Positions 26,434 through 64,000 of a stretch of DNA of 64,000 nt are shown one piece after another. The DNA comes from Blastobasis lacticolella. Taxonomy: Eukaryota > Arthropoda > Insecta > Lepidoptera > Blastobasidae. The translations under genes were made by a program, and so were the position numbers. How positions within the stretch are numbered: the stretch's first letter is position 1; every line of letters starts with the position of its first letter. Below the pieces are notes generated by a model, which did not search any database, was not told the origin of the DNA, and was given only the letters and a program-made list of their open reading frames with translations. The stretch is taken from the NCBI GenBank assembly GCA_905147135.1, contig LR990064.1, positions 10,868,001 through 10,932,000 of the forward strand, written 5' to 3'.

Positions 26434-26765
26434 CCTAGTGTATATACTTTCATAAAAATTTGTAAAATTTATAAGGAAGCAATCAAAATGCTCAGTGACA
26501 TTTATATAAAACCCAAAAATTTAATTTATGCACGTCAAGCTTTGGCCACTAGGAGACACCTTACTCATGAGTCTATATCAGATTATATCCGTGAGTTAAA
26601 GGGCTTAGCAAATGATTGCCATTATAAAGATACCGCAGAGCTTATCCGCGATGCTTTCATATCGGGGATTTGTTCTCCAAAGATTAGGCAATGATTGCTC
26701 GAAAATAAAACTTTGACCTTCTATGATGCGCCGAATCAGGCCCTAACTTTGGAATCACATCGCAG

Positions 26766-29949: not shown

Positions 29950-30842
29950 AAGTGAGAGGTACCGGGTTCGAATCCCTTACGTCCTGCCTGGCTCCAAGGT
30001 GTGCCAATGCTGTCAATGGACAGCATTTCATTGATATGAAAGAGGAACAGAGTAAGAGATAGCTCCGAGCCTAGCGATACACCAGCGTTAGTATCAAAGC
30101 TATTGGAGCAACAGCCGTCAACTACTGCTTTGATGCATCTGATAGACAAAAAGCTAGTTACCCACTTGCACAATCCCTCGGGAAGCCCGTACGATGGTAA
30201 CTTCGATATAAGACCACTATGCCGGACCCGATCGAATGCCTTCGCCAGATCTAGGCCAACTGCCAGTGCCTCACCTTGACTCTCAACAGCTAAAGCCCAA
30301 CGGTATGTTAGGTACACTAGAAGATCACCCGTTTAGCGACAATGTCGGAAACCATATTGGCGGTCGCTCAAGAGATCGTGTTCTTCTAGGTAACCAAGGA
30401 GCTGTGTGTTTATAACTCGCTCCAACGCCTTAGAGAGAAGGGAGGTAATAGCGATAGGCCTATAATTCGATGGGTCTGATCTGTGGCCCGTTTGGGCACA
30501 GGGTGCATGTGGGCACTCTTCCATGAAGACGGGACTATCCCAGTGGAGAATGAGAGCGCAAAGAGGCGCGTTAGTATCGGACACAATTTGGGAGCACACA
30601 GTTTAAGCACCACCGCCGGAATACCATCAGGCCCACTCGACTTTCGAACTACAAGAGAGAGTAGCGCTCGCCGTACATTCCGTTGAGAAATGAATATTTC
30701 CAGCATTGCCGCACCACGGGATAGTAGGCGAGTCGGCGCCTCTGTCGTTCGGGGTCGATTTTAAGGCAAAGAACGTACCCAATAAATTGGATATCTCTAT
30801 TGCACTATGGACCAGAGTACCGTTATGTTTACGCAGGTACAC
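29950..30842 (-). pseudogene. LINE-C RT fragment
   Basis: Minus-strand pieces give RRALLSLVVRKSSGPDGIPA, PSNYRPIAITSLLSKALERV, LSDRQYGFRHCR, GLDLAKAFDRVRHSGLISKL and LSLTLFLFHINEML. The catalytic YADD box is lost. It is the same family as 15658-16760 and 45620-47475. Confidence 0.8.
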
Positions 30843-35580: not shown

Positions 35581-35662
35581 CGGAGTAGCCCATTCTGAAA
35601 AAGAGATCGGCCGTAATACTCCTTCTCTCTAAAGCCTGTCGATTTCTTTCTCGAGTCTGTCT

Positions 35663-40181: not shown

Positions 40182-41807
40182 CAGATGGATTATGTGCAGA
40201 AATCAAACAGATGTATGCGATTAAACTTGATTTAATTATATTCATATAAGCACGGTACACGAGCACAAGATTCAGCGGCCATAGCTGAGAGCAAGAAGAC
40301 AGAAACAGCAGATGCATAATGCATCTCATTCTAATTTGACGTTGACAGTTGACACTGACAAGATACGTTTCGTTTACAAATATATTTCCAACACCACGCC
40401 TTAAACTAACACATCCTGAGAATCCTTGCCCTCCATTGACACCAGTGCAGTCTGCTTACCTACACTAGCTGTGGAATCCTGAGAAACCGAGTCCATGGCA
40501 ACCTCTGACTCAAGTAAACAGCTCATGGCTTGTTCTACTAAATCTAACTGATAAATGCCATTATAACAAGTACCTGTCGCAATGATTTCATTACCATCAT
40601 AAATTTTACAACCTTCAGAGTTAAAAATTACATTATAACCCTTCCTATTTAATTCACTAACTGATAATAAATTTGCAGAGAGATGAGGTATGTAGTAAAC
40701 ATTACTTTTTGTTTTAAGTCCACTTTTTAACATGACTTTTACTTTACCAAGTCCACTTGTCATTACTGTGTCCAACGCTTTTGAACACTGAAAGTCAAAC
40801 ATTATCTGCTTACTGTTGCACATATGATTTGTCGCACCAGAGTCTATATACCAAATATCATTCCGCACTTTTACTGACAATGCTGTCAACAATGACTTGT
40901 CCTTGGACGGAGTAGTGGTCTTGGGACTATAACTCTTTAGGTTCTGCGGACAATCTTTCTTCATATGCCCAGCCTTTTTACAGCGAAAACATTTGAATAT
41001 TTTCTTTGCCGCTAAAGCGTTGATGTTGGAGTGATCAACTTTTTCTTCACGCCGCTGCTGCTCCTGCAATAGCTTCGTTTTAACCATTTCACTGGTGAGT
41101 ACCTTGCTAGAATTTTCCAGGGCCATGATCAGTGGGTCATAGTCTTTTGTTAAGCCACTTAACATTATTACAGCTATAAACCCATCGTCTAGCTTTGAAC
41201 CGATGTCGTCTAGCTGCTGCCCAAGCTCCGTAATCCGTGATAGGTATGCTTGCATGCTCTCCGCTTCACTCAATTTCATGCCAAACAGTGATCTTAGCAA
41301 CCCCAGACGTCGACACAGTCCTTTGTCTTCGTATGCACGCTGCAGATTAGTCCAAGCTTCGAATGGTGTATTTGCATTACGTACATGTGTTAAAGCTGTA
41401 GGTCCTACAGACAAGCAAATTTTAGCCAAAGCCTTCTGTTTTTTTCTTTCGTCCTTAAATGCGGTTGCGGACTCTGCGGTTTCGATACATTCGTACAGAT
41501 CTTCATGCATTAACATCATCTTTACCATGAATTTCTAGAATTGTAATCTTCAATTCCCTTTAGTTTTTCGATAGGGATGCCGAGGGACAGTCCAGATCCT
41601 GATGTAGCCATCTTGCGTCGTATTTGTGCGGTCTCGTACAGGTTATATCGAATTTACCTTTTTTTCAAATATTTACGTTGCAGGGTACAATAAACGTCCC
41701 TGGGCCCATAACCAGATGGATTATGTGCAGAAATCAAACAGATGTATGCGATTAAACTTGATGTAATTATATTCATATAAGCACGGTACACGAGCACAAG
41801 ATTCAGC
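40182..41807 (-). mobile_element. Copia-type retrotransposon lacking most of pol
   Basis: The minus-strand 3' LTR is about 40182-40393. It begins with the canonical TGTTGGAAATATATTTG and shares its last 96 bp with the remnant 5' LTR at 41712-41807. Right after the 5' LTR lies GGTTATGGGCCCAGGG (41696-41711 on the plus strand as its complement), which matches the anticodon-arm type of primer binding site used by Drosophila copia with a half initiator tRNA-Met. The body holds gag and protease but no integrase core, RT or RNase H. It is non-autonomous. Confidence 0.8.
40401..41528 (-). CDS. Copia gag-protease ORF, 375 aa
   Basis: Gag (about residues 1-165) has AFEAWTNLQRAYEDKG-like and LSGLTKDYDPLIMALE segments typical of copia-type Gag. 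A CCHC zinc knuckle CFRCKKAGHMKKDC lies near residue 190. The protease active site IWYIDSGATNHMC is near residue 230, with the downstream LSANLLSVSELNRKGY. The frame then passes to a Ser/Glu-rich end and stops 8 nt before the 3' LTR. The true gag start appears to be ATG near 41612 (MATSGSGLSLGIP), but a stop near 41531 separates it, so the N-terminus is frameshifted. It resembles the Gag-protease product of the spliced copia transcript. Confidence 0.8.
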   Translation of the reverse strand: MVKMMLMHEDLYECIETAESATAFKDERKKQKALAKICLSVGPTALTHVRNANTPFEAWTNLQRAYEDKGLCRRLGLLRSLFGMKLSEAESMQAYLSRITELGQQLDDIGSKLDDGFIAVIMLSGLTKDYDPLIMALENSSKVLTSEMVKTKLLQEQQRREEKVDHSNINALAAKKIFKCFRCKKAGHMKKDCPQNLKSYSPKTTTPSKDKSLLTALSVKVRNDIWYIDSGATNHMCNSKQIMFDFQCSKALDTVMTSGLGKVKVMLKSGLKTKSNVYYIPHLSANLLSVSELNRKGYNVIFNSEGCKIYDGNEIIATGTCYNGIYQLDLVEQAMSCLLESEVAMDSVSQDSTASVGKQTALVSMEGKDSQDVLV

Positions 41808-44879: not shown

Positions 44880-45210
44880 TAGTTTATTTTTTTAATTTGA
44901 TAATTTTTTTTTTAATTCATTGTAACATTTACCTACTGGAATCTGGAAAAATTGGAGGAGGTTTATGTCCAACTGTCTAGAGTTAAATTTAGATTTAATT
45001 TGATAGCAGTTCTAAATCTTATTTGTGTACCAAGAATGCTTCCTTAAGGTACACCACATCATTGTAAACAATGTGCTTTTTATTACAACTGTATCCATTG
45101 TGTTTTGTTTTACGAGAAAACTCTAAATCTTGTTATTACCGTATGTATTAAAACTTAATTTAACATATAGTAATACTAATTATTAATTAGTCACGCAATA
45201 ACCTAACTAG
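44880..45210. other. Upstream region of gene B
   Basis: This is AT-rich sequence. No other feature is recognised, apart from a probable proximal promoter in its last part. Confidence 0.45.
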
Positions 45211-45211
45211 G

Positions 45212-45217
45212 TATAAA
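45212..45217 (+). promoter_or_regulatory. TATA box of gene B
   Basis: TATAAA lies 79 bp upstream of the ATG at 45291, preceded by CTAACTAGG. A start near 45242 would give a 5' leader of about 50 nt. A TATA-driven promoter fits a tissue- or stage-restricted, highly expressed gene; that is inference. Confidence 0.6.
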
Positions 45218-45290
45218 ATGTGTAAGTTTTTAATATTATTTACTGATTTTTGATACCTCACACTACACTGGTGCGAAGAGGCTATACAAG

Positions 45291-45353
45291 ATGCAGTCTT
45301 TATCGTTCGTGATTTTATTTGCGGCTTTCGTCAGTGTTCAATCATATTACTCG
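45291..45353 (+). CDS. Gene B exon 1: signal peptide
   Basis: The ATG at 45291 begins MQSLSFVILFAAFVSVQS then YYS, ending at donor GTAAGA (45354). The hydrophobic core LSFVILFAAFVSV and small residues before YYS fit a secretory signal peptide cut near VQS. The start was chosen because it follows a TATA box and no other ATG precedes it in frame. Confidence 0.82.
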
Positions 45354-48300
45354 GTAAGATCTATCACTATCGGACTCCAATTACTCAAGATTAGGGTTTT
45401 ACGATAATTTAATTTTAGATAGTTAAGTTTTTAATTTTTGTTTGAATTATTTGTATATTTTTGTTTATTTAATCTTTTAACTAGATTAACCATACATTCC
45501 GCCCCTTTTTTAATGTTGTAGTGTAGGCGGCACCTGGTCCCGCGTGTGTTTTTAACTTTCAGCAAAACAACCGCAAACCCTCCCCTCCCCCTACTGTAGA
45601 AAGTCTATATGACTGCTAAAAATTAAAGGAAAATCGTTTCTCCGGCAACTCCCCTTCCACATTATATGTGGACTTCTGCAATGTAAAGGCATTGCACTCT
45701 AACCTACATGTCGTCCATCACCATCTCGAGACTGCAAAGCCATTAGTCAAAAGTATTATTACTAACGGAGACGCAGATATCTGTCCGACACTTCCTACCT
45801 GGTACACACATGCCTAATATTGAGGATTACGTACCTTCATTACTGAATCTAATGCTGACTTTTTACCCAGAGGGCTATCAGGTGTCCGTCACCCATGGTT
45901 CGATAAGTCCTGGGCGGAGGCCTTCAGCCTAAAACAGGAAGCTTAATTTACTTGGGCGGCAGCACGAGATGTGAAGGACACGGAAACCGATGCACCAAAG
46001 AAGCGATACAATGCTGTCTCCAGAATTCCAGATCCAATAAAAAGAAAATAGCCAGGGCTAATCACAAACTCATTCTCAACATTGGTGAGAGACTACTAAG
46101 CCCCCAATCTGGGAGTCGTGCTTTTTGTCCTCTCGCCACAGCCATCGAAGGAAATTTGTGTTCCTTACCAACCTATGCCTGATGTGCGTTTTACACAGAC
46201 TGCGGTGCGACGTGTATTGTTTTCTCTCGACGTCAGGAAATCCAGCGGGCCCGACGGTATTCCAGCAATTGTGCTAAAAACATGTGCTCCTGAATTGGCT
46301 CCGGCTTTGATACGCCTGCACTCGCTCTCCTACTCTACTGTGGAAGTGCCGTCCTCATCGACTATAGCCTCTATCATCCCAGTTCCTAAAAAGGATGACC
46401 GTCACACAGAGCCGTCTAACTATCGGCCTATCGTAATCACCTCCCTACTCTCAAAAGTCATGGAGCAAGTAATTAGTACCCAGCTTGTCGGTTACCTAGA
46501 GGAAAACTTTCGCAAAGGTCGCTGTGCTGGTGACCTTTTAGTGTTTGACTCACCGACGGGAAGCTGCCATTGAGAGTAAGAGGGAAACGTTGGCCGTCAG
46601 TCTGGATATCGCAAAGGCATTTGGTTCATGAGCCTCCTGTCTGAGTGGAGTATTCAAGTCGTCTGATGCGTCTCTGTGTTGTCGCCCACGTTGTTCATTC
46701 TGATAAAAGTGTCATATTGCAGATCAGTGATATTCATTGCTATGCGAACAACAGCACAGCAGTTTGTGCGATCACATCAAAAAATAACCTATTTTATGCT
46801 TAAAACAGTGACACAGTTCTGGAACGTTCCCTTTACCATCTCAAGGAGTATTGGGATTCTCGGCATCGACATATCGAACCACGTTCACTTTTAGGATAAC
46901 TTGGACGATAAAGCTCCAAAAATTTGGGGTACTTAGTAATGCCAACAGATCTTTATACCGGGGTTATTGACTATTGAGTACTACTCTAATCTTTGGGATA
47001 ATGCGCCCCAATATCAACTTCTTCCATTTGATTCCCTTCAACGCCAGGCTGTTCGTATTATCGATGATCCCCTTCTGACGGATGGTCTAGATCCCTTAGG
47101 CCTCCGGAGAAACGTTGTCTCTTTGAATGTTCTCTACCGTCTGTTCAACGGGGAATATTCCGAAGAGTGCCACTGTCACATTTCCGCCACTTTACCCTCC
47201 GATGATTGGATAGATTTCATCCACACCATCTTATTGTCTGGCAACCTACTAACGTACGGGCATCACGAGCCTTTTTACCATGCACGTGTAAAATGTGAAA
47301 TTTCGTAGTCTTTCCTCTGCACTACAAAATGGGGTTCTTTCAGAGGCATGTCTAAGGGTACCTCAAAGGTCGGCACCGCATCCGCCTCGTTAGGATGCAG
47401 ATGTCTTGGATGACGGTGGCCACTTTCCATCATGTGGACCGTCCGTCCGTGTGCCGCCCTAGGCATTAAAAACAATAGCCAAAAACAACGAATTTTTAAA
47501 ACATCTTTGCTCTTTCCGCTAGTCAGTAGCGGCATATTACTAACACCATACCAGGTCGGTCCGCTTTCTTGTTTCTTGATTTCGCTTCCCGTGACATTAT
47601 GCGGCGACAAGCTATCTCTGGATGCATTTAAACCGTACTTTTCATTCTTATATTGTAGGATTACCCATACAATCCGTTAGGAAAAGCCGATTCACCACAG
47701 CCTCATCCATCTATCAGTAGGGAGACTATGAGCAGATGAGGTCGGCTTGCGCCCGTGACATGGTGATGTAGACTCACTCAACCGCCTACCTATATGTGTT
47801 AGTAGCGTCATTTATTTATTTATTTAACCATTTATGTATTCTTCATCTGATAGTTGTATAATATAATCGTATATAATAAAGTATAATCGTTTCTCTTTTC
47901 AGGTGCCACCACCAATTGTAAGTGCATTGTGTGAAATATGGAAAAAGGCGTGACGTTGTGTGAAATCATGCAATACATCCGTGTGTCCGTTTCGGGTAGA
48001 GTAGAATAGCATACTTACACTCGTGGGTGTAGTACAAGGCGACTAATGTTTTCGAAGCAAATATCCGTAGTCAGTCTCCGTAGACTGTAAAATGGGCAAC
48101 AGCGTTTTCTATTATTATATTTACAACACTGCGATCTCCAACTGTCCTGCCAGGCGTAGAGATTATGGCAATAATCTCCTCTCTCGTGGGGGAAGCCTTA
48201 GTCCTGCAATGGACTACTACCGGCTGTGATGATAATGACATTTTCTATACCCATTACCAAAGAGTGGTTAAAAGGGAGCGTGCTGAGCATGTAAATTATA

Positions 48301-51300
48301 ATGGTAATCAATATTGAAATCTGATGGCGAATATTTAAAATGAATTGCGGATAATGATACAATACATGTTAATATAGATAGCGATGTAAGTACGCACTGT
48401 CCACGCTTGGCAGGCGGGCCATAAACCCTGCTGCCAATTTTCTGGTATATGACAATTTGACAATCATCTTTTACGATGTAGTCGAAGAGGTTGGTGAAAT
48501 TCTACTCTGCCCGACACCACATCACCGGGATTTTTTTGTATCGTGTATGAAGAATTATTATTCTCTGGTATTGAGAAATTTTAACTTTTCTTGTTGCAAC
48601 AGGCACGGGATTCGAATGTGAGTTCAACTGAAAATACCTACGTCAAAATTTGTTATTAATGTATATAGTACCTACAGAACAAAGAAGGTGGATAAAAATG
48701 GCTCCACGTTATACAGAAAATGAGAAATACCTCAAAATTGTTAAAAATACGTGTAGCATACCTAACAGTTAATCTAAATTAGGTGGTAGGACTCTGTCAA
48801 ACCTGAGGAGTCCGCCTGGGTGAGTACCACCGCGTTATCTATTACTGCTGCCAAGCATCACTGCTTGCATCATTGTGTTCCGGTTTGAAGGGTAAGGTAG
48901 CCAGCGAAATTACAGGCATGAGGCATTTCATCTTAGTCCTCACAGTGAGAACGTATCTGCGGTTTTGCATTTTTGTTACCTGCAACCTAAATGTAAGAAT
49001 CGTAAATGTTATGAGCGACAGTTACCATTTACCATTAGGTGGGCTGTTTGCTCGCTTGTCACTGAGTATCATAAAAAAAAACACAAACGAAATTGCTAGG
49101 AATTGGTTTTCACAATTTCATGTTGACATAACACTGAACCACAATACCATAACCCATCGTGTTGGCTTTGCCGAAGTCGATTAAAACGACCCTCTCCCAC
49201 TGAACTTAAGCATAATGTTCTTCATAAGGCTTGTCTACAGGTGCCTCAAAGGCACCGCATCTGCTACCCTTGGGTTGCAGATGTCCTGGACCTCGATTCT
49301 GGTACGAAAATCGTCTCAGTTGCAGTAACATTACAATTCTGGACGACGGTGGCCATTTCCAATGTGACCATCAGGTGCACTGTATGTCCGTGTGTCTCCT
49401 TAGGTAATAAAAAATAAAGAACCTATCCCTACTAATGAAAATGAATCATTCTATTGTAATTTATTGCTTTATTATTAATTAGCACAAGATTTACCTAATT
49501 ATTTATTTTTTATATTGCTTTTCAGCTAAGAAGCCTAGTAAGTACTGTTAATTAATATTAAAGACGGAAGCGGTACTAGTCTAGTGACAGCGTGTTTTCG
49601 AGGCCAATAACCAAGGTTAGGATAATTAATTAATTAATAACCAAGGGAACTGGATAGGTGACCGTTTCGTACATTAAGGCTCAAACTTCAGCATCGCAAT
49701 GCAATGAGCTCGCTACTCGTTAGGTGTGCCTGTGTTAGAACACTACTGGCCAAATGGGGTTCACCTTGGTCTTTTGCTGTAGTCCCTGAGATTGGTTGAA
49801 CAGTTTCGAGTGATAATTGGTTCTTAATGATAGTATCCGTCCAATCTGTAGAAAACATGTTGCGCACTATCTGCATCAACAATTAAGTGTCGAGCAAAAC
49901 TTGGTATGGATGTCGAACCACTTATCTTGTATAACAATATTATCCCTGTGCCTTTATATAATAAGTTGCTTTTTATTGTTTTTTTATATACTCTATTTCA
50001 AGTAATAAGCAAATGTACCCATATACTTAAAATGTTGACTATATGGGTGATTATATTTAATATATTTTTCGTATATAGTCGCGTCCACCTATTCAGCGCG
50101 TGACGCCCGACAGGAATCGCGTCTAAATCGCGCAGCCTACCATATTGACACGGACGATGACGCGGTGACTAGGCGTGCGGGACGCGAGGGCTGCGCGATT
50201 ATTTACAAATAATAAAATAAGCTTTCTGTCATAAGTATAGAAACCAAAAATTTAAAAACTTTTTGGAGAAATCGCACAGAAATCTCGTACGTCTGTATGG
50301 GATCTAATCCTTCATTGGCTATATAGGCTTAATACACTAAAAAATAAACAATTTTTTCACAGGGTGATGACATTTTGCAATCGATCGATGAATATATTAG
50401 GGTAAGTGAAAAAGACGTAATGTTATATTAAATATAATGTTATGTTAAATTAAATTTTAAGTAAGTATACTAACTTAAAATTTAGGAATCCTTACATCTA
50501 TGGGTGACGTAAATCTTTGCCGAGTCTTCATCACACCATATTGGAATATATATAGCACTTATTACCAAACCGACAGACAATGTCGACCAAGTTTACTTAT
50601 CATCATATCAGCCAGAAGACGCCCACTGCTGAGATCTCCACAAAGACCGGTCCTCTGCTTTCCGCATCCAGCTGGTACCTCAGTACCTTCAGTACCTAGT
50701 TTTTGAATTCATCCCGAACAGACAGACGCGTCGTGAGACTTTGTTTTATATGAAGTAAAGTACAATTATATCTAAAATTATGCAAACAAATAAATATTTC
50801 TTTCTTTCTTTCAAGATCTTCCTTTCGGTAAGTATCTTAAACTTTCGTCTGAAAAGACAGCAGGGGTTGCATCACAAGTACCGTATTATGTGAACCAGCA
50901 GCAACAAAGTTACGGAGTATATTATAGGTAGAGCAAATTAAACTATATTTCTATAATAAATAATATCATAATCGCTTTCGGCAGTTTCGAGAAAAGTGCA
51001 TGTCAAAACACATGCATTTTTCTCTAAACTGCCGGGACTGATTTTAATGTCGTACGGCATAAGACTAACAACTAAATATGCTCAACCTGTACTCCATAAC
51101 CATGTCACTTATCATCAGCTTGGCGTTAATGTCCCGGTTGTGCTCTCGCGCACGAGGGCCCGGGGTCCGCCTTAACCATGATCCAGGATTTGGCAGGTTG
51201 GGATATTACAGTAATCCATAACCATGTCACTGCTGGTTCAAATAACTGTATTCATCATCATCATCATCATCATTATATCAGCCGAAAGCCAAGCCGAAAG

Positions 51301-54300
51301 CCACTGTAAAGGCCTCCCCCAGAAATCTAAACAAAAGCCGATCTTGTGCCTTCCGCATCTTTTTCCATACAAATGTGACAAACGAATGCTTTTTTCTCGA
51401 AACTGCAATGTCCGATTTTGATGTCGTGCAGGATAAGAATATATGATCTGTTTAAACTGACCTATTTTATTTGGTTTACAAACAATGACCAAAATCACGA
51501 ATTGCCGTATCAATCACGCTACGTATATTGTGTATAGATGTCGAGAATTATATAAGAAACACATAGAATGTGAATTTCAACTAATACTGCTGCACATTAT
51601 CCATTTAAATACATAATTTCCTAAACCAAATAAGACAAGTCAGTTTGGAATGTTTATAGTTAAAGGTGCTCAGCCTGTATTCCGTAACAATGTCACAACT
51701 GGTTCAACGAATACGGCATTTGTTATGTGCAAAAGACATGCCGTTTTAGACCTAAGTCAATGCTCGTCAAAGTCAAAAATGAATTGTCAGAAGGGATACG
51801 TTAACTTTTTTGCATACTACTAATTGATAACATTCTATTTCAGAAAAAAACTAGCAAGCTAGTCGTAAGTTTGTTTTCGCTTTTTAAAACGTCAATTATC
51901 TTACCAAATATATAAAAAGATCATCTTGGCGTTAATGTCCCGGTATTCTCGTGCACAAGGGCCCGGGGTCCGCCTTGACAATGATTCACGATTTGGCAGA
52001 TCAGGTAATTACAGTGGAGCGGCTGCTATGTAACCTCCGTGACCCTGCTACGAGACTAGATCATGGTTACATCAGGCATTTGCAGGTTTCATCACGATGT
52101 TTTCCTCGCCGTAAGAGCATCGCTTAGCGTTCAACTAATGTACATACCTCAGAATAGAGGCATTGGTACATGGCAGCAATGGGATCCGAAACAGGTACCT
52201 TTCGCTAACGAGTTGGGTACATTTTCTACTAGGCCACCGGTGCTCCTAATTATCTTACCAAATATTATTCTCGCGCCTTTGTCGGCTAGATCTTTAAACC
52301 AGGCATTGTCGTGAATGGTCACACTTTTAGTGATAGTCTTCCGCCAGCTAGGCCCTTCCAACTATTCTAACTAATACTAAATGTCACCATGACCCTACCA
52401 TCCAGGGCAATTTCTCTTGTCTGTTCACTGTGTGACAGAACCTGTCTTTCCCTTATTGACCTCTACAGCTATCAGAGAAAATGCTGTACCATAACAGTGA
52501 CACTGTTTAGATCGTTTATAATATATTTTTTAAGGTCAATGATGATGGTTCTCACTGCTAAGCTAGAATAGACGGTTTTTAAATTTTCTCCTACCTTGCT
52601 TGACGCGCGGGTTGGAGATCGCACATTTCGGATACTCAACAGAAAACATACCCCTCCGACAGGATAACGTCAGAATACACAGGCCAAGTAAACTACTGAA
52701 CCCGATTTTAATGAAACAAAGCAACCTTACACATTTAAACAGATGCACACTTTAAACCTATAAATCCCACCTTTTTGGCGCGATAAAATGGATCAGAAGA
52801 CACCGCTGATCATTTTCTGGACAACACAGGTCTTAGTTGATCCCCTAACGGATAGGGCCTAACCTATAGTCGCAACAAGCTTTTTAATATTTTGATGGTT
52901 GACAACACCAGCCAGACGAAGAATGTGGCGCTAAGTTATATTTCTGTGTGCTATGTTCTACTCCTAAAGTTTCGTGGTTATCAGCCGAACTACAAACATT
53001 ACCATATGTATATAGCGAGGCCAGAAACAACAGCGCTACTCTTTTTAAGAACAAAATGTTGGAACAGATTCTTAGTTCTCCACAGCCAGGCGTCAAACGG
53101 CTAAATAATAGGAAGTTACTCAAACAATAAATAAGTAATATCGAGATGTCTATTAACAAGATAAAAATGTTTACATTTTATAGGATGTAAGTATAGTTTA
53201 TGCTATTTTAGCTTAATTGATATGATCATTAAACGTAATAACCCATGGACGTAAATAATATGATCATAATGTTACGTCTATGGGTTCTAATCAAATCAAA
53301 CCACTAGAGTGCTAATTTATTGGAAAATAATTTAGCATTCTAGTACCTTCTTTCTTTTCAAAAATAATAACACGAGAAAAACACGATGCACCAAATTTGT
53401 GCTTTTTGCGCCTACCGCAAAGGGTATAATGAAACCCTTCGGACTAACGGGGGAAGTATAAAGTACACTCATGTGTACCAGCGAGCCCGGCCGGCTGATT
53501 ATGCAGGACTCGCAAGAAACCTAGGCACCTACTATCTAAACTTGCCTTGGAAGTACCTATAGCCGAGAAGGATTTTCAGGTTGCATCGAATGCGACACCC
53601 AATAGGGGTGTGCAAGCCAAATTGAGGCAGTTTAGTGGAAAGTTTATGGAAAAGCTGCACTGATATGAAGCAATAAAAGATCATTTGTTTCCTAGTAAAC
53701 AAACCTAATCTTTTGTCCGATTGCACTACACTTTAGGCGAAGCTTAAGTTAATTAAGAGAAAACAAAACTCGCTAAGTAAGTTTATGACACCGACTTCTT
53801 TACTTCTAAATGTTTAGGAATATCTTAAGGCGCCAACTTAAGAGTCGCCTAAGTTTAGCATACTTAGTATGTCGAGCATGAAAGTAGAGGCGTACGTAGT
53901 TGCTTAACTATGTCACAGTAATATTGCAAAGACCATGATATTATGAATTCATAAGTGATATTACAATGATGTCTCCTCTAGTAGAATCCTCTAAGATTTA
54001 TTAATAATATTTAAACACATTTTTATAGGTGGTAAGTAATACTTTGTGTCAAATCCAATTCATTATTTTCCTACTTGTTTTTCTTTTATCAAATTTCAAA
54101 TCAAAGTATACCAAAGTAACATGCTTCTTCTTACTTAATCGTATTTTATCTCTAATTGACGAGCAATTTATACATTTTTGGATCGAATAATTATTTTTTA
54201 CGTTTTATGTCCTTTAAGCTGGTACGTATTTATTTTATATTATAAACAATATGACATGGAATAGAGATTTTTAGTTCCTGCCATTTTTATAACTTATCAC

Positions 54301-57300
54301 CTCTGGGTTTTAACTCAACCTTGATCGAATTATCATCTGTTTTTTATTTAGATTAATTATGTAAGTGCAATATTTACGTATTTTTCATTTTAGAACTTAA
54401 ATAAAAATTTAAAGCAGCCACACTTAAGCAAAAAGTTATTTCTACGCCCATATTATATATTTAGTTGGCGATTATCTTGTGTGGTTTAATAATTAGTGTA
54501 TACCGTAGTAAAAAGTGTGTGTGTGTGTGTACCACTAAACTTTTAAAGCTAAGTTTTAACTAATAATATAAAATTATATTTAATATTTCTAGCTTCAACA
54601 AAACCCGGTAAGTGTTATTTTATTTGTGTACTAGCTGTTCAGATTTTAGGAAAACCATTAATTTACATTAATAATTACATATTTTAATTTATATATTTTT
54701 GTATGCAAACTTTGGCTGTACATTGCAACTACCTTTGCTCAACCCTCATCAAATCATATTCAAAATTCAAATATTTAAACGATTCACTATTCAACTACCT
54801 TTCATGAGAATCAGTAGCCTCTCATTACCGTTGTAATGTATGCTCTCCGAATTAAATTCATTGGAATATACAGTCCACTCTTCATTATTTAAAACTGGTT
54901 ACCCTGAGGTCTACGACCGAAGAAAGTAGGCCTGATCACTAGCCAGACATTTGACTGCCATGTCATCTGGTGGTAAGTGACGATGCGTCCGAAGATGGAG
55001 CACACGTCTAGGAACAGCCTATTCTTTCTAGCCTTTTGAAATTTACACTTTTTTATTGCCTAGGTACCATAGAGTTACGGTCTATCTGATGGAAAGCTGT
55101 AGGTAGGACATTTGTAACCTAAGGCTCAAGTATATAACTTATAAGCCTCCGCAATGCGCGTTGTTTTGGTCACGGCGTTGGTATTTTGTATATATTTTAT
55201 ACAAAATACCAACGACGAGTTGGACGCCTTTTGTAAAGATTGGCCGAGGAAAGCATCCGACCTTAAGTCGTAGAAGATGGATAGGGAGGGCGACAGAAGT
55301 GGCTAAAATATTTTTTTTTTAATTCCATTTTTTGTTTAAGTAAATAATAAGCCACCCCTACATACTCTTTATTTACTTAATCACCAAGTAAAATTGTTTT
55401 CTTTATGCAGGACGTAAGTTTCTATTTTAGCTTTTAACACTATTTTAATCCAATGAAATATTATCATATTTTAAAAATATATTTAGGAATAATTAGACAT
55501 ACTGGATGGACCAGATTGGATGTGTACATTCGCGCGTTCCAGTAATGAAAATGAAAATAGTATTTATTGAATTAGGATTACGTTAATTTATCTCTTTTCA
55601 AAAGTAAAAAATGTAACGGAAACCAAAGGGAAAGTTAAGCGAGCTCATCCAGGTAGGGGGCAACGCATGCAGACCGATCAGCGCGTATGAGGACTTACTC
55701 CGGCGAGACACCGGGCACCTATACATGCCTCGCACACAACCGCCTAGGCGAATCATGTGCACAGCGTTCCCGACCCCAGCTGTGCTAACACCCGCACGCA
55801 CCAGCCGGCCCACCCGCGTCGCCCCCTGAACTCGGAACAAAAAGTAAAAGTAATGTCGTCTGTCTGTCAGTATGCCGCTTCAGTTAGGCTTAATTAAGAG
55901 TTTTGTGTGTATACGTTTATGTTTGTATGTATACGTCACAGTGTATTTGGCACGTACTTTGGCAGATTCAGTGTTATTGGCCTACTCGGCAGAGACCCTC
56001 AACACAGTCTACATATCCTTAAATATTTTCAAACTAAATAAAAGAAGTGCTAGAACGCATCCACATATCTACACACAACGAAGACTCCATTACTATAACA
56101 GTCATAATTTAACTTGATATTTTATAACATTCAGATCGTGAGTATATTGTTTTATTTTTAGATATTTGTTAAAAACATAATACTGCATGGGTAGAGACTG
56201 CATTGCAAATTGATAGTGCAGCGACATCTATCGCTGTAATAAGAAACTCCAATAATACTCATCATTTCGAATACACGAGCACGTAATTGGCAACCGTCGC
56301 ACATAGATGGCGTTGGCCTCCTTCATATGAATCTCAACTTTTCATACTTAAACCTAAATCGCGCTAGAGAAGTGTCCAATCATTTTGCGATGTTTATATC
56401 GCCACCAACTCGTCACTGCATTCTGACATACCTTCATAGCCTGAGCAAACATGGGTCGTCCAGATGTGACAACAGCATGACCTTTGATAGACACATAAAT
56501 AGAAAAAAAAAATTAAAAAAGCAATTGGTACACAAAAATTTAACACTAACACAATTTTTTCTAGCCTGACGACGAGAAGCAGAAGGTAAGAAAATTCAAG
56601 GCAACTTAGTAGGTACGAGGCGAGTCCAGAATGTAAGTGTACTGTGTCAGACAGAATTCTGAACTTACGCTTATCTTAGGGTAAAAATAAAAGTCATAAA
56701 ATGTTAAAAATATAATATGAAATAATAATATAATATAAATGTGATAAAAAGATCAATCTCGCAATACAGCGGTGCACATCGGCCAGTCTATTGGGAACAA
56801 TTTCTTCTACGAGGGACTTGGGGCTAGTTTTTTATTTGTAAATATTCTTTTATAATTTAGATAATTTTTTTCCCTTTATATTTAATTTATCTCTATCATG
56901 TTAATACTTTCATTGACAATTAACAAAACAATGAACAGTACAGAAACATTGATAGTTTAAATAGAAAATAACAAATCAAACTAGACATATTTAATGATAT
57001 TTCGAAATTTTATTGCTGTTTTTTTATTTACAAATCCATAAGATAATTAAGCAATTTGCCAACCTTATAAAGCGAAACCATAGATAAATCTCGCCTAGAT
57101 TTAAGTTAGGTGAAAAATTCCAATTGGCTAAGGTGATTCCTGAGTGGTTCAGTGGTCGACAAAAATACAACTTTTTTTTAAAAATGAATCTCGATTTCTG
57201 CCTAAACTATGAGTTTCCGCGGGTATGTTTCTTGGGAAAAGTTGTTCAGTTTCATGGGTAGAATATGGGGTTTCAATTAATGCTAGCGGTCTTTTTACAC

Positions 57301-60300
57301 CCTGTATACCTACTTTTTTGTAATTTTCATTCGTTCATTTAACTCTATTTTATTTTCCTACAGTACATAAATGATCTGCTACACGCAAGACTTGTAGAGG
57401 TAAGGCTAAATATAGTATATAGTCGCGCCCCCGTATTTATATAATTATAAACATTGCTATGAACAAGTATTTGTGTTTGGTAGTAAAAAAAGTTAAGCTG
57501 TTATTTATTTATTTTTATTTTACAATTTATTGTACACATGAAACTTTGATGAAAAATACAGAGTTAAAGATGACACAACAGGCGCTACTTATTTCTTAGA
57601 AGAAATCTCTTCCAGCAGGCCTATTAAAGAGATATGTGATAAGTAGTCGCAGATTAGACATGCACAATATCTAACTAAATATACATACACATATAATAAC
57701 CTAATATATTAAACTACATATACCAATACATAAAATACATAGATATCTACAAATTATCTATAGGCATTGTACCCCGCATTTTCAAGAACTAAGAGAGAGA
57801 TAGTGCTCTTTCACAAATTTCTTAAAAATACCGATAGATTTACTATCGCGTATTCCATACGGTAGAGAATTCCACAACCTTGCAGCATGAACAGTGAAGG
57901 AGTAGGAATAGAAATCGGAATGGTGAGGTGGTATTGCTAATGAGGTTCGTACACTGGGACGACAATGTTTGTCTAGTGGACGGGAGAAATGAAAACGTTC
58001 AGAGAGATATAAAGGAGCAGACGGGTTATGGAGAATATTATAAAGAGTGGAAAGAATGTGAGCATTCCTACGTAGTCTAATTGGGAGCCACTTGAGTTGG
58101 GATCAATAACTTGAGACGTGGTCGTACTTGCGTAAGCCAAAAATAAAGCGTATGCATAAGTTTTGAAGTCGCTCTAGCTTACTTAAAAGGTCCTCAGTGG
58201 CATCCAAATAGCAACAGTCTGCATAGTTTGAGCAAGAGATATTTTAGTTTTCAAAGGCAGAAAACTTTGGAGATCTTTGATAGAGATCTCATTGACCTGA
58301 GACACCCAGGACAAATTGGGCTCTAAAATCAAACCTAGGTTTTTTGATTTTTTGCTGAGCGGAATGGAAATTCCATCGTAACAAATAGTATGAATAGTAT
58401 ACTTTAGCGTAATTTAAAGAATAAGAAACGAATATTACGTCATTAATCGTTTTATTAAAGTAACGAATGAAATAGAAATTAAGAACAAATAGAAAAAGTT
58501 AAAAATATCATATTCATAAATTTTGTTGTCGAAGACCTTAAATCTCAAGACGGACGACACTGTGAGTGCAGCTCCTACTACGGTGGTTTTTATTGCATAA
58601 ATACCTTGCAGTGTACAAATTCTTACAAATATTCCTATATACCTGATCAACTCCTGAGAAACTCCTTCGGAATAGGTCCACAGAGATAAAAATTCCGGGA
58701 AAAATTCCAGGCCGGGAAAGCTCAGCACTCAGGGAATAATTTCAGTCGGAATAATGTTGTCGAAAAGCCCTGGATATAATAAACATATTTTATAATTATA
58801 TAATAAATTTCGGCGAGTGGGTTTAAATATCCACTAAATCGCCACTGCTGACTAGCCTGACGAAGTGTCCTGTGTCCTTGATAATAGATTTTGGACAATT
58901 CTAATAAGATGATTTATACTTATACATTCAATCAAATTAATTAGGTACACACGCATACCACATACACACACATACGCACGGTACATGCACACGCTAACGC
59001 ACTCTCATATATAAAAAATCTTTACAGTATTCCACATTCCATGACACCGTTCATGGCTAAGAATCTTACTTTTGCAAAGCTCAAAAAAGGGATTACTATC
59101 TCCGATAGTACAGGTTAACCTAGTTTAGGAGACAGGAAATCAATATGTGGCTAATACATTTTTAGTGACTGAATTATTACATACACACATTGTACTTAAG
59201 ATATATATTGCCATTTATTGTACAGTTATATTATATTCGTTGTTATATTATTTGGTTTATAAATACTATTTATATATTCATGCTAAATCACTTAAATACT
59301 ATGCTAAGTAGTTCACGTTGCGCAGAGTTGTATTTCTATATATCGAGTCTGTCATATGTACGTGCAGCTTCTGGAAACTTCGCAGCGCCGAATGTTGAGT
59401 ATGTAACATGTGATACACAAACTATTATTAAAAATTTCAGGAGGCCGAGCTCAAGAACATCGTAAGTATCCCATACCATCAACAGTCTACTGCTTGACTT
59501 TCCACAACTACTTGCGTACTAGTGGACTGGTAGAAAAAGCTGCTAAGCTTTAAGTAATATGCATGAAATAAATTTAAATAAATAAATTATCCAAAACAAT
59601 TTTTTATGCAAAAATAATGCAAAAATTTAAAGTTGACTTCTGTTAAAGTAGAGGACAGGGTACGACAAGCAAATATATATATAAACTGAAAATAAAACAG
59701 AAGTAGTCATATGAATCAAGGCACATTTATCTCTTAGAACAATCTGGTTTAAATAGCCTAAGAAATAGTATCTTTTGATTTGCGTAAACTAAGATAACAA
59801 TTATTATTATTTTCCTCTAGATTTTCCCCCATTTACCAAGTGTAAGTATTTTAAAGATATATTAATAGAAGGTAATAATGGTTACTGCAGAAATCGCCGT
59901 CATATAAAATCCAGTTCGTCACCCTGTATGTTACAATATATTTTGATGTAGTCATCTACGACAATAACATATCAGCTATCAGATTCCCGATAATAACGAC
60001 ATACGCTAATAAAAAAAATTGACGACATCGATTCTAAAATCCTACTCGATTCACTCACAGATTCATGTTGTTTTTCCTGCGTTTTCAATGGCTGGCCTCC
60101 GTGGGAGAGGTCCCACCCGGGACCATCTCCGGGCAGAGCCAATTAATTCCTGTCCGTAGCGACCATGGGACGATCCGAGTAGCCAAATGTGTAAAATGTA
60201 TAAATTGACATAACATAATCTCATTTCACATATTTTGATTTAGCCGTGAGCGAGTGATCGTCTAGTTATCGATTTAAAATTTTCAGACCCGTTACGTTTG

Positions 60301-62595
60301 TATACATTTTGAAAAACGTCACAAGGATTATTTTAGTTTATGGCAATACTCTATAAATCAACAAATAATAAAATTTAGTTTATGTAGATAAAAGTAAAAT
60401 CAAATACCGACATCCGCACAAATGAAACGAATGAATCATAAAATCCGCGTAAGTCAGATGTCCAATGCACGCAGATCCAAATAGTCAAACAATTTATAAA
60501 ATCCGTACAAGAAATCAAACAAAGAATAAAGTAAACATGCGACTTAGCTTTGACAGCACTCGAAACGGCAACGGATTCTTCTTTCTTCTGTGGCCACCCT
60601 AACCCTATAATTACGAAACCCTAACATTGTCCTTACCTAAATAATATGAAATAGAGGCCTTTAGGTCTCGGAAATAGCCTAAATCGATAGGAAAAACCTG
60701 GGCTCACCCTCCAAACCTACACACCAGGCCAAACATGAACATATAGACCACATGTCCTGCGCATGCGTCCAGCAAAACCTTGACATCAAACGAACCAGTG
60801 ACCTATTGTCTACTTCGCTCGTAGAATAGCACCAACCGTTTACACTCATGGGTGTCGTATAAGGCGACTAATGTTTTTCGAGGCAAAACTTCTAGAGTCT
60901 CCGTAAGCTAGAAAATGAGCAGTAGCGTTTTCCATTGTTATTATAACACTGCGATCTCCAACCCGCCTGCCAAACGTGGCGATTATGGCAATAACTTTCC
61001 CTTTCGTGGGAGAGGCCCTAACCCCTGGTAGTGGTCTATTATGAGCGGTGATGATGATGATGATGAGATTGTGGTGGAACGAACAAACCTACAACCAAAT
61101 TTTTTTTTCAGGATGATGTACCACCATCGAATAATGTAAGTATATATATTACTCGCATATTAATAATCACTTTGGCCTTCGATATATCGGTTGTACCGGG
61201 TTCGAATCCCACTGCAGCCATGTACCAATGACTCTTTTCTCAATAATGTACATTAGTTAAAGTCTAACCAATGCTCTTACGATGAGAGAAAACATTGTGA
61301 TCTTCTTTTTTGCTTGACGACTAGTGGCGGGTCAAATTTGCGGGGACCAGTAGTCCAGTAACATTGTGATGAAACCTGCACATTCAGGCGACTGAATGGT
61401 AACCATGATCCAATCTTGTTAGGTTCCCCTGGTAGCAGGGTCACGTAGGTCAGATGGCAGTCGCTCCACTGTAATTATCTGATCTGCCAAATCCTGGATC
61501 ATGGTCAAGGCGGACCGCGAACCATCGTGCGAGACACTAAACACTGAATTCCCTTATAATATTCAAAATGTATACGTGAATGTTATTTTATTGTTTTTTT
61601 TTGTACCACTTAAGTGGCAAACAAGATTGCAGTGATGATGATGATGTGGTTGTGGTGTGGAAGGAACAAATCTACAATCAAATTTTTTTTTCAGGATGAT
61701 TTACCACCATTGAATAATGTAAGTATATATTTTACTCGCATATTTATTATCATTTTGGCGTTCGATATCTCGGTTGTAGCGGGTTCGAATCCCATTGCAG
61801 CCATGTACCAATTACTCTTTTCTGAATAATGTACATTAGTTGAATTCTGACCGATGCTCTTACGGTGAGAAAAAACATTGTAATGAAACTGATAAATCCT
61901 AGATTATGGTCAAGGCGGACCCCGGGCCCTTGTGCGCGAGAGCACAGTCGGAACTACGCCAAGATGTTAAGCACGGTAACAGGGGAACCCGACCAAATTG
62001 GATCACGGTTACATATTCAGTCGCCGGAATGCGCAAGTTTCCCTCACGATGTTACACTTAGCGTAAGAGCATTTTTATTTATACCACTAGGGTGGCACAC
62101 AAACTTACGGCCTGCCTGATGGAAAGCAGTCTATGGACATTTGCAATACCAGGGGCGTCACCCACGCGTTGCGACCCCGTAAAAAGCTTTTCATCCCTTT
62201 CTTGAAGAACTCCCTATTGTACTCTACAGGAATAACTTCTCCAGGTAGTTCATTCCACAACCTTAGTGGGGAAAAAGTTCCTATAAAATTGCACAGTTCG
62301 CGACTAATTTAGCTCCAAGGTGTGAGGATGAACTCCTGTCATTGGCGAGCGGTGCGATGATAGAATGTATCTGTAGGCACTACGTCAAACAGTTCGTGAG
62401 AACAAACACCGATGTGCAAGAATCGTTTAATATTCAACTAATACATATACGAGTACATGAGTCACAAAAGTGGTGAAGGCATTGCATAGATTGCAAGCAG
62501 ATATACCCTAAAGGTAAAAGGTACACCGACGATATATTTTATTTTTATACCGTTTGTTCCAGAATCGCTACAACAGAGGATCTTACAGAAACTAC
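45291..62595 (+). CDS. Gene B: secreted multi-microexon gene, 3' part outside window
   Basis: I do not recognise the family. Nineteen exons, some marked as candidates below, join in one frame to about 130 codons across 17.3 kb. Every exon is a multiple of 3 (3 to 63 nt) in phase 0, and almost every donor is GTAAGT. Exon 1 encodes a signal peptide. The rest alternates acidic, Asn/Pro, Leu-rich and Arg/Tyr modules, without cysteine and without a known domain. Three exons are one codon long. Two neighbouring exons (61112-61135 and 61695-61718) are duplicates. The introns are filled with LINEs, SINEs and MITEs. Phase-symmetric exons let splicing drop or keep any module, so many isoforms could arise; that is inference. 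The layout resembles schistosome MEG genes and aphid bicycle genes in form, but no sequence relationship is claimed. Confidence 0.75.
45620..47475 (+). pseudogene. LINE-C element in gene B intron 1
   Basis: Endonuclease-like pieces lie at 45650-45830 (YVDFCNVKGIALNLHVVHHH). RT pieces lie at 46118-46573 (RRVLFSLDVRKSSGPDGIPA, PSNYRPIVITSLLSKVMEQV). The C-terminal region lies at 46967-47308 (AVRIIDDPLLTDGLDPLGLR). The tail at 47330-47470 is typical for the family. Frames are broken and the RT palm is largely deleted. Confidence 0.8.
47903..47917 (+). CDS. Gene B microexon, 5 codons (VPPPI)
   Basis: Acceptor CGTTTCTCTTTTCAG, donor GTAAGT at 47918. 15 nt. Confidence 0.75.
47985..48236 (+). mobile_element. 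SINE-like R2 in gene B intron
   Basis: Near full-length plus copy with the GATGATAATGA tail. A minus fragment of R2 follows at 48398-48528. Confidence 0.8.
48398..48528 (-). mobile_element. SINE-like R2 fragment
   Basis: It contains CCACGCTTGGCAGGCGGG and CTACTCTGCCCGACACCAC, with internal deletions. Confidence 0.65.
48603..48617 (+). CDS. Gene B microexon, 5 codons (ARDSN)
   Basis: Acceptor AACTTTTCTTGTTGCAACAG, donor GTGAGT at 48618. 15 nt. Confidence 0.72.
49215..49415 (+). repeat. LINE-C 3' end fragment
   Basis: Shares GTGCCTCAAAGG, GTTGCAGATGTCCTGG and CCGTGTGTCTCCTTAGG with the other LINE-C tails. Confidence 0.65.
49526..49537 (+). CDS. Gene B microexon, 4 codons (LRSL)
   Basis: Acceptor TTTTTTATATTGCTTTTCAG, donor GTAAGT at 49538. 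12 nt. Confidence 0.7.
50363..50401 (+). CDS. Gene B exon, 13 codons
   Basis: Acceptor AACAATTTTTTCACAG, donor GTAAGT at 50402. The phase 0 peptide is GDDILQSIDEYIR, a likely short amphipathic helix. Confidence 0.8.
50816..50827 (+). CDS. Gene B candidate microexon, 4 codons (IFLS)
   Basis: Acceptor TTTCTTTCTTTCAAG, donor GTAAGT at 50828. The acceptor tract coincides with an AATAAATATTTCTTTC-type repeat tail, so the match could be accidental. Confidence 0.45.
51110..51215 (-). mobile_element. SINE R3 fragment
   Basis: Contains CTTGGCGTTAATGTCCCGG and ATGATCCAGGATTTGGCAGG of the R3 body. Confidence 0.6.
51844..51864 (+). CDS. Gene B microexon, 7 codons (KKTSKLV)
   Basis: Acceptor TAACATTCTATTTCAG, donor GTAAGT at 51865. 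21 nt, basic. Confidence 0.78.
51915..52245 (-). mobile_element. SINE R3, minus copy
   Basis: R3 body with GCGTTAATGTCCCGG and the GCACCGGTGGCCTAGTAG-like tRNA head near 52230 (minus). The B box is decayed (GGATCCGAAAC). Confidence 0.7.
53184..53186 (+). CDS. Gene B one-codon exon GAT (Asp)
   Basis: Acceptor ATGTTTACATTTTATAG, donor GTAAGT at 53187. Three nucleotides, phase 0. Alternative acceptors upstream are weaker. It parallels the candidate at 2004-2006 in gene A. Confidence 0.6.
53415..53660 (+). repeat. Dispersed repeat R5, copy 2
   Basis: Similar to 2100-2345. The shared core includes AAGGATTTTCAGGTTGCATC against AAGGCTTTTCAGTTTCATCG and GCGACACCCAATAGGGG against GCGATACCCAATAGAG. 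Confidence 0.6.
54029..54031 (+). CDS. Gene B candidate one-codon exon GTG (Val)
   Basis: Acceptor ACACATTTTTATAG, donor GTAAGT at 54032. It could also be a recursive-splicing-like site. Phase 0. Confidence 0.45.
54352..54360 (+). CDS. Gene B microexon, 3 codons (INY)
   Basis: Acceptor ATCTGTTTTTTATTTAG, donor GTAAGT at 54361. 9 nt. Confidence 0.6.
54593..54607 (+). CDS. Gene B microexon, 5 codons (LQQNP)
   Basis: Acceptor TATTTAATATTTCTAG, donor GTAAGT at 54608. 15 nt. Confidence 0.72.
55411..55413 (+). CDS. Gene B one-codon exon GAC (Asp)
   Basis: Acceptor AAATTGTTTTCTTTATGCAG, donor GTAAGT at 55414. Three nucleotides, phase 0, with an excellent polypyrimidine tract. Confidence 0.62.
55546..55889 (-). 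mobile_element. GC-rich SINE-like repeat R1, copy 2
   Basis: Same ends and orientation as 4087-4446, with a 3' tail ATTTTCATTTTCATTAC (minus) and a small internal deletion. Confidence 0.75.
56565..56585 (+). CDS. Gene B microexon, 7 codons (PDDEKQK)
   Basis: Acceptor CACAATTTTTTCTAG, donor GTAAGA at 56586. 21 nt, charged. Confidence 0.75.
57364..57399 (+). CDS. Gene B exon, 12 codons
   Basis: Acceptor CTATTTTATTTTCCTACAG, donor GTAAGG at 57400. The phase 0 peptide is YINDLLHARLVE, helical in composition. Confidence 0.8.
57495..58345 (-). pseudogene. LINE-D 3' fragment in gene B intron
   Basis: Parallels 30850-31700 of the LINE-D copy: ACAATTTATTGTACACA-type end, GAATTCCACAACCTTGCAGC, and GGGAGCCACTTGAGTTGGG against AGCTACTTGAGTTGAG. 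Frames are broken. Confidence 0.75.
58346..59437. other. Gene B intron, no gene seen
   Basis: AT-rich sequence with an ACACACATACGCAC simple repeat near 58960. The minus-strand frame at 58435-58728 shows no recognisable domain. Confidence 0.45.
59441..59461 (+). CDS. Gene B microexon, 7 codons (EAELKNI)
   Basis: Acceptor ATTATTAAAAATTTCAG, donor GTAAGT at 59462. 21 nt. Confidence 0.77.
59821..59841 (+). CDS. Gene B microexon, 7 codons (IFPHLPS)
   Basis: Acceptor TTATTATTTTCCTCTAG, donor GTAAGT at 59842. 21 nt. Confidence 0.78.
60820..61068 (+). mobile_element. SINE-like R2 in gene B intron
   Basis: Full plus copy ending in a GATGATGATGATGA tail directly before the duplicated exon block. 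Confidence 0.8.
61112..61135 (+). CDS. Gene B duplicated exon a, 8 codons (DDVPPSNN)
   Basis: Acceptor CAAATTTTTTTTTCAG, donor GTAAGT at 61136. 24 nt. Near twin of 61695-61718. Confidence 0.82.
61195..61540 (+). mobile_element. SINE R3, plus
   Basis: B box GGTTCGAATCC and the R3 body. A 60-bp diverged stretch (61300-61360) interrupts it. Confidence 0.75.
61695..61718 (+). CDS. Gene B duplicated exon b, 8 codons (DDLPPLNN)
   Basis: Acceptor CAAATTTTTTTTTCAG, donor GTAAGT at 61719. The flanks match exon a on both sides for about 200 bp in total, including the start of a SINE R3. Confidence 0.82.
61765..62075 (+). mobile_element. SINE R3, plus, duplicated copy
   Basis: GGTTCGAATCC with R3 body. 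Its head is part of the duplicated block. Confidence 0.75.
62563..62595 (+). CDS. Gene B exon, 11 codons (NRYNRGSYRNY)
   Basis: Acceptor ATACCGTTTGTTCCAG, donor GTACGT at 62596 (or GTAAAC four bases later, which would break phase). 33 nt. Similar in composition to the gene A exon at 508-585. Confidence 0.7.
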
Positions 62596-62818
62596 GTACG
62601 TAAACATTATTATTTAAAATCTTTGCACAAATAATACTTTTCTAACTAAAGTAGCGTAGCCCTTTTGCTAAGTGAACGCACTGCGTTTAATACAGCTCGC
62701 TATAATAGGTCAATTTTGTTCATTTGACAATGATATGAAGATCACGATAGGACCGCGACATATGTAGTATATACAGCAGAACATATTTTGAAAAGTTTCT
62801 TTGTCTATTACAGTACAG

Positions 62819-62824
62819 TACAGG
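62819..62824 (+). CDS. Gene B candidate 6-nt exon (YR)
   Basis: Donor GTAAGT at 62825 follows a TTACAGTACAGTACAGG run with three AG acceptors 5 nt apart. Only the middle one gives a multiple of 3 (TACAGG). Weak but in phase. Confidence 0.35.
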
Positions 62825-62829
62825 GTAAG

Positions 62830-64000
62830 TAGATGTAAGGTTTCTATTATAATCAAGAAGATTAGGAAGAAAACATGTGTGACAAGTTATTTTGTATGTA
62901 GGTATACAATACAATACAAAATATGTTTATTTCTCTCAAGAAGGCAGCACGTGTAACAAAAGCTGCTCTACAAATTTGCATCTAAATCAAAAAGCAAAAA
63001 ACAACTATCCTCACAAACATTTTTATTGCCTAGGGGAACACTCGATCAGGTGCATGATGCAAAATGGCCACCGTCGTCTAGGACATTAGAAAATTATAAT
63101 TTCATTGAAAAAATTTTGAAAGGGCTACGAATGTAATAACAAAATTAGAAAAGCCAACCGTGTTATTTAGCAAATCTTATAATTCAAATGTATGTGTCTG
63201 TCCAAAAACTTACTAGATCTAAATTAAAATGTTAAAATTACACATTTGACACAAAACCGAAGGGTTAGGTAGCGAGGAGCGAAACGCCGAGCATGTTAGT
63301 TGTAATGAACATTCATTGCACATGCTAATTCTACAAATTAGGCTATGTGAGCATGCTGCGCCCCGCGCGGCGTCAGTCTTCCCTTGCCTCGCGACCGTGA
63401 CTATTTTCCTGGCCACTTGTTAACGCTGTATTTAGCGAGTGTTTTATTTAACCTTGGTTTTGTGAAACGCGATTACTGGCTTTAATTTTCTGTGCCTTCG
63501 AACACTCTGCTGAAGTAATTGGACATACATAAATATCAGTGTTATATAGGTAAAATGGGGACTATAATACATCATCATCATCGTAATCTGTAACCCCACA
63601 ATTTAATAAAAACCGAAAATTCTTTGAACTTTTAAAATTAAACGAGTTTATAAATAATAATAAATTTTATTGGCCTTTGAACGATTTCGCCAATAGTGTA
63701 ATAGATCATGTAAATGCTGATATTTTGACTTTGGTCAGTTTATTTTTTGATCAAATGCCCATTTGTTATTTTAAAATTTTATGTTTAATTCGTAGTTCTT
63801 TCAAATTTGCTCATTGAAGGTTTGATTTTCCAATATTAATGTAACCGACATCGGGCAGATGTGATGCCGGCCTTTGACGTACCTGTACACACGCTTTTTG
63901 AAGAATCCCATGATATTGATAGTTCGAAAGAAAGACTAGATTTACGCACTTATTATAAAGTATTAATAGGATTAGAAGGAAGATAAATTTTGTCCTGGAT
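62830..64000. other. Gene B intron continuing to window edge
   Basis: A LINE-C tail in minus orientation lies at about 63020-63085 (TTTTTATTGCCTAGGGG, CAAAATGGCCACCGTCGTC). The rest is AT-rich. No further exon could be supported, but gene B has no stop codon yet, so it presumably continues beyond 64000. Confidence 0.5.

Follow-up and report, generated by a model that had tools for sequence, protein, structure and literature searches.

Gene B of Blastobasis lacticolella, a probable secreted-protein gene built from phase-0 microexons

Genes built largely from microexons and encoding secreted proteins include the micro-exon genes (MEGs) of schistosomes and the bicycle genes of aphids. Here we compare with these systems a locus, gene B, located on the plus strand at positions 45291-62824 of a 64,000-nucleotide (nt) stretch of the lepidopteran Blastobasis lacticolella (assembly GCA_905147135.1, contig LR990064.1, positions 10,868,001 to 10,932,000; the whole stretch is hereafter the window, to which all coordinates refer). 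Judged from its sequence, gene B is probably a genuine microexon gene for a small secreted protein, perhaps a fast-changing gland secretion. The CYC motif mentioned below is Cys-Tyr-Cys. In the text available on schistosome MEGs, the signal peptide is encoded in a 5' exon, the central microexons are shorter than 36 bp and mostly divisible by three, and the proteins are small (PMC4671649). The portion available on bicycle genes describes many microexons of one phase, about 17 exons on average and divergent secreted proteins, with internal exons almost all of phase 2 and CYC motifs present (PMC9168663). For insect homothorax, the excerpted account gives a 3-bp micro-exon between CAG and GTGAGT or GTAAGT, the Bombyx micro-exon being given as 3 bp in one place and as 9 bp in another (PMC7392893). 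Lepidopteran seroins, to which gene B could be likened by description only, are small silk-gland proteins with splice variants, and very short exons are mentioned once in the available part of the source (PMC6405961). No title on a lepidopteran microexon gene family was found in the open-licence literature on microexons in Lepidoptera or Bombyx mori, where other wording is possible.

We retained 21 coding segments in gene B, summing to 399 nt or 133 codons, all with lengths that are multiples of three and all in phase 0. An earlier note on this DNA had described short open segments between AG and GT borders, multiples of three in length and giving some 130 codons over 17.5 kb; these features were found as described, as was the architecture, but the count of about 19 microexons rose to 21 segments. 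The coding part of exon 1 (45291-45353, 63 nt, donor GTAAGA) encodes the predicted signal peptide MQSLSFVILFAAFVSVQSYYS and is followed by VPPPI (47903-47917, 15 nt), ARDSN (48603-48617, 15 nt, donor GTGAGT), LRSL (49526-49537, 12 nt), GDDILQSIDEYIR (50363-50401, 39 nt), IFLS (50816-50827, 12 nt), KKTSKLV (51844-51864, 21 nt), the single-codon exons GAT (D, 53184-53186, 3 nt) and GTG (V, 54029-54031, 3 nt), INY (54352-54360, 9 nt), LQQNP (54593-54607, 15 nt), the single-codon exons GAC (D, 55411-55413, 3 nt) and ATC (I, 56135-56137, 3 nt, donor GTGAGT), PDDEKQK (56565-56585, 21 nt, donor GTAAGA), YINDLLHARLVE (57364-57399, 36 nt, donor GTAAGG), EAELKNI (59441-59461, 21 nt), IFPHLPS (59821-59841, 21 nt), the duplicate copies 1 and 2 of one exon, DDVPPSNN (61112-61135, 24 nt) and DDLPPLNN (61695-61718, 24 nt), NRYNRGSYRNY (62563-62595, 33 nt, donor GTACGT, taken from the relaxed-donor list) and YR (62819-62824, 6 nt), which has an ambiguous acceptor with several possible AGs and is among the least certain of those retained. 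The 20 introns, which contain dispersed repeats, range from 223 to 2549 nt and total 17,135 nt. Donors had been thought to be nearly all GTAAGT; this sequence accounts for 15 of the 21, the others being GTGAGT (two), GTAAGA (two), GTAAGG (one) and GTACGT (one), so that 17 of the 20 segments past the start exon have a GTRAGT donor, and the acceptors are pyrimidine-rich. Four one-codon exons in one gene, each flanked by a pyrimidine-rich AG and GTRAGT, are the most unusual feature of gene B, much of which would probably be missed by ordinary gene-finding programs. A weak candidate for a TATA box, TATAAA (45212-45217, plus strand), was seen 79 nt upstream of the start codon.

Four controls agree in pointing to more than chance. 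On the plus strand of the region 45200-64000, 17 of the 26 GTRAGT donors have an acceptor scoring at least 2.5 within 45 nt, and when the best acceptor was assigned to each donor with the frame ignored, the enclosed length was a multiple of three in 17/17 cases, compared with 4/5 in the rest of the plus strand and 1/3 on the minus strand. Over a grid of 12 settings (acceptor thresholds of 1, 2.5 and 4, each with maximum lengths of 30, 45, 60 and 90), every pair in the region was a multiple of three in 11 settings (12/12 to 17/17) and 17/19 were in the remaining one; the largest minus-strand samples, with 9 and 12 pairs, gave 3/9 and 5/12. When donors were widened to GTRAG[TAG], the values ranged from 19/26 to 13/14 in the region and from 0/1 to 4/7 on the minus strand, whose largest sample gave 14/30. 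Strict acceptor-donor pairs in the region numbered 14 on the plus strand, 12 of them multiples of three and the other two being second acceptors of donors counted already, versus 1 on the minus strand; first-order resampling of the region, repeated 40 times, gave a mean of 0.4 (maximum 2). In the left part of the window there were seven on the plus strand (five multiples of three) and one on the minus strand. Exons of 0-9 nt, scanned with a GTRAGT donor and an acceptor of at least 2.5, occurred on the whole plus strand only with lengths of 3 (four), 6 (one) and 9 (one), and once on the minus strand, with length 5. The four 3-nt exons, the weakest of which (2.6) barely passes, compare with a mean of 0.03 and a maximum of 1 in 200 second-order resamplings of the region. 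When the segments are joined, stop codons number 0, 8 and 15 in frames 0, 1 and 2 and 9, 8 and 6 in the reverse frames.

Looser listings, in which rows may share acceptors or donors, were less sharply divided. In one, lengths leaving remainders of 0, 1 and 2 numbered 23/10/8 on the plus strand of the region, 17/5/10 in the rest of that strand and 24/9/13 on the whole minus strand; under a second rule, multiples of three made up 12/16, 5/8 and 8/15 rows, respectively. Among the 12 of the region, 62814-62834 has an in-frame stop and is not a retained exon, and the four rows that are not multiples of three comprise one within the start exon (45335), one from a far acceptor for the 54029 donor (53982), one from another acceptor (62814-62824) and one unrelated row (62267).

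The product of gene B would be secreted, on the basis of its start exon. Under a hydropathy rule (not SignalP), 45291-45353 was the only candidate for a hydrophobic start exon on the plus strand of the window, with one weaker candidate on the minus strand, in line with the earlier proposal that phase-0 microexons encode a secreted protein. If cleavage is assumed to occur before YYS, the known mature part comprises 115 residues with a net charge of -4, rich in D, L, N and P. After the signal peptide comes an acidic middle with possible partial helicity, then a pair of D-D-x-P-P-x-N-N modules, and finally the beginning of a tail rich in Arg, Asn and Tyr.

In its architecture gene B is closest to the schistosome MEGs, as had been suggested, an analogy of build that does not imply relatedness. 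The likeness lies in a 5' exon (45291-45353) that encodes the predicted signal peptide and in the size of the 20 segments after the first, 18 of which are shorter than 36 nt and all of which are divisible by three; gene B differs in its four single-codon exons and in two exons of 36 and 39 nt. As for the long flanking exons of MEGs, the 5' coding part of gene B has 63 nt and its 3' exon lies past the window, and a neighbouring gene of similar build, gene A, described below, ends with 318 + 225 coding nt. The proposed resemblance to aphid bicycle genes holds for a secreted product built of many microexons of one phase, but every retained exon is of phase 0 and not phase 2, and the known mature part contains no cysteine. 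The single-codon exons have borders like those of the homothorax micro-exon, although homothorax is a transcription-factor gene with one microexon and gene B is made of microexons, four of them single-codon. In neural (SRRM4-type) microexons the acceptor is closely preceded by a UGC motif, which was not enriched in the 20 x 30 nt upstream of the gene B acceptors, with 3 TGC found and 6.7 expected.

Evidence for growth of the gene comes from the duplicated exon, copies of which lie with their flanks in two blocks, 61052-61301 and 61633-61884 (plus strand), that share 89.7% identity over 252 bp. The two copies of the 24-nt exon have two differences, both amino-acid changing, which are too few for a statement on selection. 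Both blocks have a 3' portion that matches dispersed repeats found elsewhere in the window, which would make a repeat-mediated duplication plausible. Because duplicating a phase-0 exon leaves the frame intact, the all-phase-0 structure may be a product of growth and not of any requirement for skipping. We propose that each piece past the start exon would act as a phase-0 exon of 3-39 nt whose acceptor is rich in pyrimidines and whose donor is close to consensus, that splicing probably depends on strong intronic sites, because exons so short cannot hold many exonic signals, and that uniform phase 0 would allow the gene to lengthen through duplication of an exon together with its flanks, as at 61112 and 61695. 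The strong splice sites suggest that most of the exons are probably included constitutively.

One candidate segment, 48790-48819 (DSVKPEESAW), was left out because of its weak acceptor (score -1.78) and a neighbouring repeat, 48865-48919, which matches 19540-19594 (80%, E 1e-8); the match overlapping the segment itself (48776-48847; 67%, E 7e-4) is at chance level, 17/220 shuffled queries reaching E 1e-3. In self-comparison at E 1e-4, the duplicated pair alone among the gene B segments overlapped a self-repeat; a more sensitive comparison of 22 segments with 100-nt flanks at a cut-off of E 1e-3 gave overlaps for 48790, 50816, 53184 and the duplicated pair. Dispersed copies of one repeat, about 72-87% identical, were also observed across the window, including 47979-48239 and 60821-61060. 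Within intron 1 of gene B, frames at 46100-47300 (plus strand) resemble a degenerate reverse transcriptase by eye; 46100-46573 had no Pfam match at 0.01, and 46238-46507 resembles 30378-30643 (68%).

Several results weigh against the reading of gene B as a genuine gene for a secreted protein. The splice-site weights were assigned manually and the thresholds picked after viewing the list, divisibility by three being no part of the choice, and the minus strand, our control, also leans towards multiples of three in the looser listings (24/46 and 8/15), for which shared-site rows and chance may be the explanation and are the only ones we can offer. Exon 50816-50827 is doubtful because it lies inside a weak inverted match (50744-50919 with 51678-51849; 61%, E 2e-6) that also reaches the 51844 acceptor; without it, 20 segments and 387 nt remain and the frame is still kept. 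Exon 53184 has a weak repeat match (E 6e-4), at a level where 17/220 shuffled queries also reach E 1e-3. No terminal exon with a stop was found in the rest of the window (62825-64000), where the acceptors at 62948, 63739 and 63796 are followed by open stretches of 2, 3 and 9 codons, none resembling the terminal exon of gene A; gene B is incomplete at its 3' end, which lies past the window. Helical amphipathicity was not informative when examined by exon order (p 0.26-0.59 for the mean moment and 0.25-1.0 for the maximum) and gave p 0.02-0.21 with residue shuffles, the mean moment being raised when IFLS was left out. Assignment to a gland type or function, for instance as a product of the silk/labial gland or of a reproductive gland, is a guess from composition.

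Homology searches add to these points. A protein search whose query included the 48790 segment returned 16 candidates, none at E <=10, and in another, probably crowded by the RSRAPA words of gene A, 7996 candidates were scored with none at E 0.1; the C-terminal part of gene A alone gave no candidate. These negatives are weak, because there was no control that the searched databases contain insect proteins. The gene B peptide had no Pfam match either with the 48790 segment (first scan) or without it (second scan), and with that segment excluded the best NCBIfam result was E 0.032 (14.2 bits, cut-off 110) and the best PDB result E 0.14, neither of which is significant. Rfam gave no match at gathering scores, and a sigma-70 promoter scan was set aside as inapplicable to an insect gene. 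Gene B is in no named family among those testable.

How the uniform phase should be understood is best considered against the possibility that gene B is an isoform generator, its microexons being freely skipped or included, as in schistosome MEGs, to give many secreted variants from one gene. All 21 retained segments are symmetrical and in phase 0, and the available text on MEGs gives 26/33 microexons as symmetrical in one set (PMC4671649), so that skipping of every module without frame loss, as the earlier note had envisaged, is arithmetically sound; the strong donors and acceptors, however, suggest mostly constitutive use, and growth by exon duplication predicts the same all-phase-0 structure. 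We regard free skipping as possible but on the unlikely side. A host-plant effector comparable to the aphid bicycle proteins would be a better match for a secreted, microexon-built protein with no detectable homologue and a neighbour of similar build than for one with exons of phase 0 instead of 2, no cysteine and hence no CYC motif in its known part, and no tie to salivary expression. Such a role seems improbable, and the composition of genes B and A would be no less compatible with a structural or coating protein made in a gland.

The large introns with their many repeats would suit a decaying gene of real ancestry that has lost expression, yet 21 segments are retained without a stop or a frame change; this retention required intact borders, and lost exons would be invisible, and we still consider decay very improbable. 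Chance open segments or transposon sequence might be suspected in introns rich in transposon pieces, especially where candidate 48790 adjoins a repeat and 50816 lies inside a weak one, but the resamplings and the minus-strand and frame controls make an origin of this kind extremely hard to credit.

Gene A (508-24070), upstream of gene B on the same strand, has nine segments and a phase-0 build similar to that of gene B, and is cut less finely. Its segments, all on the plus strand, are 508-585 (78 nt), 1986-2006 (21 nt), 15342-15386 (45 nt), 16691-16702 (12 nt), 16966-16989 (24 nt), 19280-19357 (78 nt), 21650-21679 (30 nt), an exon of 318 nt with an 18-nt repeat encoding RSRAPA (22736-23053) and a terminal exon of 225 nt, open to TAG (23846-24070); the repeats are cationic and the terminal exon is Tyr/Arg-rich. 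Candidates at 9345-9356 and 26582-26590 were left out as weaker. The hydropathy rule found no signal exon for gene A in the window, and the gene therefore probably starts before position 1. Comparison of the exon peptides of the two genes gave no significant pair (best P 0.31), and homology between them is not claimed; they may make up a local set of microexon genes, and the term family would be a guess based on their architecture and location. Within a large intron of gene A, a seemingly intact element of the long interspersed nuclear element type (4887-9610, minus strand) has two long open frames of 967 and 614 amino acids, the first of which contains Pfam RVT_1 and endonuclease domains. Elsewhere in the window, pieces of long terminal repeat type at 34207-35628 and 40401-41534 (minus strand) have reverse transcriptase/RNase H domains and a copia-type gag by Pfam.

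Taken further, we would suggest, tentatively and with somewhat less than even confidence, that an insect lineage, probably within the Lepidoptera, has independently evolved a clustered family of secreted-protein genes composed mainly of phase-0 microexons, with exons of one codon occurring repeatedly, in which the length and sequence of the protein could be edited one codon module at a time through exon duplication, loss or skipping. If gene B is what it appears to be, it would be a further independent case of a microexon-built secreted protein beside the schistosome MEGs and the aphid bicycle genes, and would pose the question of how 3-nt exons are recognised without room for exonic signals. 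It would also mean that annotated insect secretomes can overlook whole genes, and gene B would offer a clear test bed for deciding whether genes of this kind serve to diversify isoforms or merely expand through exon duplication.

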